From contig PAAG01000013.1 in NCBI GenBank assembly GCA_002698785.1, forward strand, positions 124,001 to 188,000: a stretch of DNA of 64,000 bases, written 5' to 3'. Position numbers and translations under genes: made by a program. The notes under the pieces were generated by a model, which saw only the letters and a list, made by a program, of their open reading frames with translations, was not told where the DNA came from and did no database searches. This stretch comes from Verrucomicrobiales bacterium. Its GTDB lineage: Bacteria > Verrucomicrobiota > Verrucomicrobiia > Verrucomicrobiales > DEV007. Positions 10,536 to 12,597 of this stretch are shown in pieces; within the stretch, counting starts at the first letter, position 1; the number at the start of each line of letters is the position of its first letter.

Positions 10536-11213
10536 TCAATTAGCGAGGAGAGAGAGCTGCTGGGTCGTTCCGTTGGTCAGGGACCCTGCACCTACCCAGC
10601 GAACTTCGCCCCAGGATGTCGTGCTTTTGCTGAACTCGTAGTAGTTCCCCTTCGTATCGCGGAACCAGAGATATCCGGCCCGAGAGTTCGCACCGCTGAA
10701 AGAAATCGAATTGCCCTGGTAGTAAAACTCGCCTTCGACGTTGCCGAGGCCGGAAATGTTTGCCCAGCGGATCGTCGCATTCACGCTGTATCCCTGACCG
10801 TCGGTCGCAGTGTAATTCCGCACGGTTACAGGATTTACCGGAGCTACCTTGACTGGCTCGGAGCTTACAAGCCATGCGTTCTCCGAATGATTTGTGAAAT
10901 GAACTTTGCCGCTCCAGGTCACGGATGCGCCACCGTTCTGCTTCCAGAGTTCGTAAACGATCCCGTTCTCAGTGCGAAGACGAAGAAATCCAGGTTGTGA
11001 ATTATTACCGGTAAAAGTCTGCTCGCCACCGGCGTATTGGAAGTCGCCCCATACGGATCCGAGACCAGAGATGTTCTGCCAGACGACTGTCGCGGGGACG
11101 CGATTGCCATCCTGGGATACCAGCTGGTAGTGACGGGTTTCGTTCCCTTCGACAGAGGAAGCAAAAACTGCAACAGCAGCGACAACAGCGGAGAGGATAG
11201 CGGTCCTTTTCAT
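10536..11213 (-). CDS. secreted protein with two tandem copies of an unrecognised domain
   Basis: A 225-residue exported protein with signal peptide (residues 1-about 23, KRTAILSAVVAAVAVFAS). The mature part consists of two homologous domains of about 80 residues (28-108 and 133-214). They share the blocks ATVVWQNISGLGSVWG / ATIRWANISGLGNVEG, the pattern FTGNNSQPG / FSGANSRAG, and YELWK / YYEFSK. They look beta-rich with regularly spaced Trp and aromatic residues, which suggests a binding module, but I cannot name a family. It lies 52 bases downstream of the selenoprotein gene on the same strand, so it may be co-transcribed. Confidence 0.6.
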   Translation of the reverse strand: MKRTAILSAVVAAVAVFASSVEGNETRHYQLVSQDGNRVPATVVWQNISGLGSVWGDFQYAGGEQTFTGNNSQPGFLRLRTENGIVYELWKQNGGASVTWSGKVHFTNHSENAWLVSSEPVKVAPVNPVTVRNYTATDGQGYSVNATIRWANISGLGNVEGEFYYQGNSISFSGANSRAGYLWFRDTKGNYYEFSKSTTSWGEVRWVGAGSLTNGTTQQLSLLAN

Positions 11214-11265: not shown

Positions 11266-12597
11266 TCAGCTCCTGGGAAATCCGGCTTTCAATTCCTCGA
11301 GCGTCACGGCCCCATCTTCGTTCGTGTCAAAACGATCAAAGCGTTCGACCATCGGGCCGCGTGCTTCACTTTTGGTGATCGATCCATCCTTGTCCGAGTC
11401 CATTCGTTCGAAAATCATTTCCGGATTTGGACGTCGTCGCGACGGTTCTTCGGCGCCTCTGGATCGCCCTGACATACCTCTACGATTCTGCACTCGGCCA
11501 GCATCCCGATCGACCTCCCAGTGAATAGAATATTCGTGGCTTACTGCCTTACACCACTTATCGCCGTCATCGCAGGCAAAGTAATTCACCACCAGTGTGA
11601 GCGGTTCATGATTGGTTTCCGCACTCCTATCAACCTTGATCAGGAACTCTCTTGGATCGCTGTCTGCTTCGACCTCTTCCACTTTTGCCGCCGAGCCAGA
11701 TGAGGGACTGACCTCGATTCCCTCAGAAGCCATGATCGTAAACTCCAAGGGTGGAGCCAGGTTATTCCAGTGCACATGGTGAATAGGATCGAGATGAAAA
11801 CCGATATGCAATTTTCCCTTTCCACCTTCCTTGAGTAAACCCGCCTCCGCCTCTGCCCGCAGCTTCACGTAAAGCGGATTCTCAGACTGCACTTTCAAAA
11901 CATCTATCCTCAGTGGCTGCATTCCCTGGGGGCGCGGCACACGCGGCACCACTCCACTCTCTATCTTCTTCGCAGGCTGGTCCGGTCGCTCACCCTGCAA
12001 TTCAAGGTCTTCAACCGCAGTAAGGCTCTCCGCCTTCACTGCGAACTTCTCCAGATCCTTCCGCAACGCTTCCGGGTCGCTCCACGGTCGAGCAACCAGC
12101 ACCTTGCCCTCTGGAGAAATCACAAACTCCGAATTATTTCGATCACCGAAGGCATGCTTCAGATCATTCTCCATCGAGTCCGCAATCCACGAAATCTTCG
12201 TGCCCAGCTTCTTCTTGGCTGCCGCAATATGGGACAAACGCTCTTCCAGCGTAACAGGCTGCACATACCCGTCGTTCTCGGGATGAGCGAGGGATTTGTA
12301 GACGTAGAAAAACTGAACGTCGTCTTTGTAGTCAATGTAGACCGCCTCCAGACCGGGGACGTTTCGAATGAAAGGGGGTCACGTTAGACACCCGAATATG
12401 ATCACTCCGTGTTTTCCCTTCAGTCTCTGTCGAAGCGCAAACGGCTCACCTGTTTCATCGTAAGCCGACACATCAGGAAGTTCCTTCCCAAGAAGGGGAA
12501 GTGGGCCGGTGTCCTTCGCCTTACCTCCGGGGCGCTGCGCCGAAACGCTCGCCGTCGAGAGAGCGAGTAAAGTGCACAGCGAAATCCAGAGTCTCAT
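11266..12597 (-). CDS. deiodinase-like selenoprotein with DsbD-like and EF-hand domains (TGA read as Sec)
   Basis: I read this as one 443-residue gene with an in-frame TGA at codon 73 (12379-12381), not two ORFs. A signal peptide (1-20) precedes a thioredoxin-fold domain in which VIIFGCLT is followed by the TGA and then PPFIRNVPG. This gives C70-x-x-U73 followed by PPF, as in iodothyronine deiodinases (CTUPPF-type). Downstream, AHPENDGYV, TLEERL, WIADSMEN and ISPEGKVLVARPW follow the deiodinase order. Residues around 230-380 resemble a DsbD N-terminal domain (LHIGFHLDPIHHVHW, YFACDDGDKWC). Two EF-hand loops end the protein (D400-E411 and D424-E435). No frameshift is needed, since both parts are in the same frame. 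A SECIS-like hairpin follows the TGA. Substrate unknown. It may be an exported redox enzyme rather than a thyroid-hormone enzyme. Confidence 0.85.
12343..12361 (-). promoter_or_regulatory. bacterial SECIS-like hairpin after the Sec TGA
   Basis: In mRNA sense CGUCCCC pairs with GGAGGCG (one U-G wobble, one C-A mismatch) around a GGUCU loop. The loop begins 24 nt after the TGA and starts with G, as expected for bacterial SECIS elements that recruit SelB. The stem is imperfect, so folding software should test it. Confidence 0.6.

Follow-up and report, generated by a model that had tools for sequence, protein, structure and literature searches.

Deiodinase-like selenoproteins were described in bacteria by Zhang et al. 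in 2005 (PMC1088965). The text of a 2021 marine survey names separately a fusion of a deiodinase-like domain with an EF-hand and a fusion of a Prx-like domain with DsbC (PF11412), the Prx-like motif being U/CxxC (PMC9402790), while a "deiodinase-like protein, PF00837, UxxC" is among the 119 selenoprotein families inventoried in 2026 (PMC13188914). For the deiodinases themselves, functional roles have been assigned to an anchor Glu and a second His (PMC7506546, PMC9141512). The Glu anchors the substrate omega-loop, Dio3 mutants of Glu200 and of Thr169 are inactive (PMC7506546), and in Dio1 a Cys at position -2 relative to Sec resolves the selenenyl intermediate (PMC9141512).

Here we describe a gene from a Verrucomicrobiales bacterium, located in a 64,000-nucleotide stretch of DNA which was analyzed as a whole (the window). 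An earlier note on this DNA had proposed a deiodinase-like selenoprotein hidden by an in-frame TGA and considered its combination with DsbD-like and calcium-binding parts unusual. The combination is less unprecedented than this suggests, since deiodinase-like selenoproteins and their EF-hand fusion were already known (PMC1088965, and the text of PMC9402790), although the text of the three publications above does not describe a CxxU form with all three domains. As far as can be judged from that text, the deiodinase-like/EF-hand fusion of 2021 may overlap in part with the CxxU family (PMC9402790).

Gene structure and reading frame

Two minus-strand open reading frames share a single frame across one TGA; here the coordinates and codon numbers of the earlier note proved to be right. 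The upstream frame covers 12379-12597 (72 aa) and the downstream frame 11266-12264, with a possible GTG start at 12264. Read-through from 12597 to 11266, with the TGA at 12381-12379 as the sole interruption, yields a translation in which C70-L-T-U73-P-P-F is present, as had been claimed. The sequence between the two frames had been taken for good coding sequence, and conservation across this gap in related genomes confirms it; in about 80 other genomes, coding conservation extends about 370 residues past the TGA. With standard annotation the gene would probably be split at the UGA. Positions of the features are collected in Table 1. The downstream neighbor (window 10536-11213, minus strand) encodes an exported-looking protein of 225 aa, which contains two similar repeats and matches no family above cut-off.

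Table 1. Features of the selenoprotein gene, in window coordinates
Feature	Position	Strand	Basis
Whole selenoprotein gene (443 aa, counting Sec for the UGA at codon 73)	11266..12597	(-)	Read-through kept in 79/80 homologous loci
Probable Sec-type signal peptide, residues 1-21 (MRLWISLCTLLALSTASVSAQ)	12535..12597	(-)	Charged start, hydrophobic core, -SVSA-Q end; predicted helix 2-16
Thioredoxin-fold domain, residues 31-188	12034..12507	(-)	PF00837 29.5 bits; structure closest to mouse deiodinases 2 and 3
Cys70 codon, putative resolving partner of the CxxU motif	12388..12390	(-)	Invariant in 53 family members
In-frame TGA, read as Sec73	12379..12381	(-)	TGA in 79/80 loci; Cys in L030, L047, L048, L133, L134, L139
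SECIS hairpin of bacterial type; counted from the TGA, nt 18-24 pair with nt 30-36 around an apical loop at nt 25-29	12343..12361	(-)	Pairing, covariation, frozen codons
Beta-sandwich domain, residues 214-372, DsbD N-terminal-like	11482..11958	(-)	pLDDT 94.9; PF11412 E<=0.1 in 27/53; hhalign E 0.0047
Second Cys pair, C342-x6-C349	11551..11574	(-)	Invariant in 53 members
EF-hand 1, about residues 392-413 (DSDKDGSITKSE)	11359..11424	(-)	Profile match in two stretches
EF-hand 2, residues 418-440	11278..11346	(-)	PF13202 38.4 bits, PF13405 37.3 bits
Terminal stop TGA	11266-11268	(-)	

Evidence for selenocysteine

Scanning 84,980 species genomes yielded 80 loci; L116, whose motif was unreadable in one frame, was left out. 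The loci belong to Verrucomicrobiota, Kiritimatiellia, Planctomycetota, Acidobacteriota and Poribacteria (at least four phyla), and the Sec codon is TGA in 79 of them, inside G-C-L-T-TGA-P-P. The search for homologs with Cys at the Sec site that the earlier note had recommended was successful, and they occur in separate lineages: three loci are from the genus of the window itself (L030, L047, L048), two are from another family of the phylum and retain all three domains including the EF-hands (L133, L134), and L139 is a further case. A match in genome G222 had been flagged as having one TGA; this turned out to be the stop upstream of the Cys-form gene L139. Judged by eye, L133 and L134 are fused N-terminally to DUF1566-like repeats, and L135-L138 to a beta-helix-like region.

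The genome, of about 7.0 Mb in 60 contigs, has the complete machinery that was to be looked for. Genes selA (503 bits), selB (290 bits, joined) and selD (386 bits) each score over their curated cut-offs and are located on contig C53, where selA adjoins selD, and there is one tRNA-Sec on contig C19. The selD gene has an in-frame TGA of its own. Phosphonate-type ABC transporter-like genes for an ATPase and a permease (L001, L009) are found between selD-selA and selB. Within the genus, nine genomes including that of the window have the gene, all nine with TGA at the Sec codon; selA is present in 9/9 of these compared to 33/57 of relatives overall, which has a chance probability of about 0.004 if relatedness is ignored.

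Since an Rfam scan of 10-14 kb of the window gave just one sub-threshold match, to FsrA and elsewhere, the SECIS element was examined by alignment. A spacer of 17 nt separates the TGA from the hairpin. Of the 553 pair cells that 79 distinct sequences give for the stem, 488 are standard, compared to 177-320 with one side slid, and G26 in the apical loop is found in 81/81. The pair 18-36 occurs as C-G, U-A or G-C and the pair 21-33 as C-G or U-A, and each of them exceeds all 5000 shuffles. From codon 7 to codon 11 after the TGA there is practically no synonymous variation (Pro8 is CCC in 56/56, Ser9 is AGT in 43/43), while it is ordinary in codons 1-6 and ahead of the TGA. The hairpin is absent from the Cys paralogs. 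We also observed a bias outside the hairpin, at the 23rd codon following the Sec TGA (about 12312-12310 in the window): in those genes of the L051-L130 family that have Lys here, the codon is AAG in 34/34, compared to an AAG:AAA ratio of about 875:723 elsewhere in these genes.

A conventional annotation would see two frames here, the second with its possible GTG start, and the TGA could thus be a genuine stop marking a pseudogene, two separate genes or a sequencing error. We consider the chance of this to be negligible. The same codon is TGA in 79 of 80 independent assemblies, Cys replaces it in relatives, a covarying hairpin follows, sequence is conserved across the gap between the frames and the sel genes are present. 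The TGA is therefore far from a chance occurrence; chance stop, sequencing error and pseudogene were all rejected, and comparison of genomes confirms 12597-11266 as one selenoprotein gene. Five independent lines (sel genes, co-occurrence with selA in the genus, TGA in 79/80 loci, Cys forms and SECIS) show at the comparative level that UGA73 is decoded as selenocysteine via the downstream bacterial SECIS and resident SelA, SelB, SelD and tRNA-Sec, which bears out the reading of the earlier note.

Domain architecture and probable export

The structure was modeled with AlphaFold2 using 53 relatives, with a mean pLDDT of 89. Judged by its signal-peptide-like N-terminus the selenoprotein is probably exported, and the earlier proposal of export is supported to this degree. 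The two EF-hands that had been noted were confirmed by profile matches over cut-off, with loops in two stretches of the window protein scoring 38.4 bits against a cut-off of 25.9; EF-hands are found in many, not all, relatives.

Identification of the middle domain as DsbD-like holds in part. The modeled beta-sandwich, the Cys pair and a resemblance to the DsbD N-terminal domain (DsbD-N) stand, yet the resemblance is weak and PF11412 is sub-threshold in members scored singly: 2/10 match, at 16.9 and 19.1 bits against a cut-off of 25 bits, and the window protein alone has no match. Across members, PF11412 is detected at E<=0.1 in 27/53, with a best E-value of 5e-6, and hhalign of the middle domain with the N-terminus of the genome's own DsbD aligns Cys on Cys. 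A sequence search of PDB with the middle domain alone gave no match. Foldseek returned mixed Ig-like sandwiches, including FixG-related and adaptin-ear structures, without a DsbD chain, a result that does not thereby exclude DsbD; the ScsB N-domain has a Z of 6.8, among many Ig-like folds. Together these results make it likely but not proven that the middle domain is related to DsbD-N.

Full-length DsbD in the genome is 711 aa long. A second DsbD gene (L132, contig 18) is proteobacterial-looking by eye; with contamination of the assembly rated at about 5%, contig 18 may be foreign to the organism.

Relationship to deiodinases

The thioredoxin-type domain has mouse deiodinase 2 as its best solved match (9h48; Z 20.0, rmsd 2.4, 157 aligned), with mouse deiodinase 3 second (4tr3; Z 19.0) and SdbA/ResA next at about 17. 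In a sequence comparison with PDB, the family profile also retrieves Dio3 (E 7e-7) and Dio2. The T4_deiodinase profile PF00837 matches 50/53 members at E<=0.01; the window protein is barely over its cut-off of 27 bits. The fold kinship with deiodinases proposed in the earlier note is supported.

The catalytic identity is a different matter. C70-x-x-U73 had been taken as the deiodinase signature, but deiodinases have Ser-Cys-Thr-Sec with Cys at -2, a motif not present here, where Cys-Leu-Thr-Sec with Cys at -3 is invariant across the family. In the Dio3 alignment S167-C168-T169-U170 corresponds to C70-L71-T72-U73. Shared invariant residues are T169 (T72), Y197 (Y100), H202 (H105) and R225 (R120), and H105 corresponds to the essential His of both Dio3 (H202) and Dio1 (H158). 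Dio3 E200, however, is replaced by an invariant Leu103 and H219 by Pro114, and the substrate omega-loop and GGxGP motif are absent from the selenoprotein family in this alignment. Identity with deiodinases in catalysis, as far as it depends on the Glu, the second His and the omega-loop, was therefore not borne out. The change of Glu to Leu, the move of Cys to -3, which creates a thioredoxin-like CxxU, and the retention of EAH and GxGP in ordinary bacterial proteins together argue that the family is a subfamily of its own with a deiodinase fold, and the protein should, on these residues, be called a deiodinase-fold CxxU selenoprotein and not a deiodinase.

In a maximum-likelihood tree of 53 rows the window gene is placed among Verrucomicrobiales (98/96 support, 15 rows), with bootstrap not fully settled, and the Cys paralogs L030/L047 form a long separate branch. 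There is no conserved gene neighborhood among Verrucomicrobiales, and the recurrent neighbors (sulfatase, DUF1501, cytochrome-type) look like abundant planctomycete families. In Rhodopirellula-like planctomycetes (L098, L099, L108, L110, L119, L121, L122) a PQQ-type beta-propeller-like gene is directly upstream on the same strand, with a product of up to about 1000 aa.

Redox pairs and possible function

All 53 members have C70, Sec or Cys at residue 73, C342 and C349. In the paralogs L135-L138, from another family, the active site is D-L-T-D and the C342/C349 pair is also gone, while EF-hands are retained in L135-L137. This suggests a non-catalytic paralog. The joint loss of both pairs, seen in one clade and so probably one event, points to two redox centers which work as one machine.

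The reading we prefer, with a probability of roughly 0.6, is that of a selenol/thiol-disulfide enzyme of the extracytoplasmic space whose C70-U73 site would cooperate with C342/C349, a reductase on a deiodinase-like scaffold and not an iodothyronine deiodinase. Outside the cytoplasm Sec73 would attack its substrate, which could be a disulfide or an oxidized or halogenated small molecule. C70 would then resolve the selenenyl intermediate, giving a C70-U73 selenenyl-sulfide, which the middle domain could reduce with its C342/C349 dithiol in the way DsbD-N passes electrons to periplasmic clients. C342/C349 may in turn be recharged by a periplasmic reductant, for example DsbD, whose full-length gene in the genome provides a periplasmic electron source. 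The EF-hands may bind calcium for stability or attachment in calcium-rich surroundings. More tentatively, one could think of a self-contained relay, with the deiodinase-fold CxxU site and the DsbD-N-like Cys pair on one chain, gated or positioned by calcium, and of a multi-phylum subfamily with its own chemistry. The relay model can be tested directly on natural variants, namely Sec forms, Cys forms and the paralogs that have lost both redox pairs.

Two other activities were considered. A peroxiredoxin- or GPx-like selenoperoxidase, in which Sec73 reduces peroxides and C70 resolves, would agree with matches of the Redoxin and AhpC-TSA profiles to 48 and 47 of 53 members and with the Prx-like nature of many bacterial thioredoxin-fold selenoproteins (PMC13188914). 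We consider it rather unlikely, as the Prx motif PxxxTxxC/U has Thr three residues ahead of Sec (PMC13188914), where the family has Cys, and as structural Z to Prx is about 15, below both deiodinases and ResA-type reductases. Slightly less probable still is a genuine deiodinase-type reductive dehalogenase, with Sec73 attacking an iodo- or bromo-aromatic and C70 and the second domain regenerating the selenol. The closest structures, the invariant equivalents of four Dio3 residues and the passed PF00837 cut-off speak for such an activity, while the replacements of E200, H219 and S167-C168, the missing loop and GGxGP and the inactivity of the Dio3 mutants speak against it, as does the retention of EAH and GxGP, with PF00837 scores of 96-112 bits, in ordinary deiodinase-like proteins of the same order.

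Comparison with known systems

Bacterial deiodinase-like selenoproteins (PF00837) share with the family described here the thioredoxin fold, Sec followed by P/G-P-F, a bacterial SECIS and the occurrence of Sec and Cys forms. Their motif is FGSHTUGPF, with no Cys at -3, whereas the CxxU family has FGCLTUPPF, a far lower PF00837 score (29.5 bits for the window protein) and an added DsbD-N-like domain. Some likewise carry EF-hands, but at the N-terminus, while those of the CxxU family are C-terminal. Ordinary deiodinase-like selenoproteins of the same order are L031, L032, L033 and L036 (Cys form L035), L031 and L036 having N-terminal EF-hands. NF038285 (deiodinase family protein) matches all 53 members over the catalytic domain; the window protein, with 68.7 bits, stays far below the cut-off of 250 and is matched by the second half of the model alone. 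None of the NCBIfam models recognizes this protein at its cut-off.

Mammalian deiodinases (4tr3, 9h48) have in common with the CxxU family the thioredoxin-type fold and the positions of Y, H, T, R and Sec, but combine SCTU with a membrane anchor where the CxxU family has CLTU and predicted export. ResA/TlpA/CcmG and DsbD (ScsB) resemble it in a thioredoxin-like CxxC/U site outside the cytoplasm (Z 15-17) and probably also in a DsbD-N-like Cys-pair domain; the CxxU family differs in having both parts in one soluble-looking chain, Sec at the second position of the pair, additional EF-hands and no membrane domain. By its sequence features the CxxU form with DsbD-N-like domain and EF-hands is a distinct and widespread subfamily. 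It occupies an intermediate place, with deiodinases on one side and ordinary periplasmic thiol reductases on the other, and so bears on the uses to which the deiodinase fold was put.
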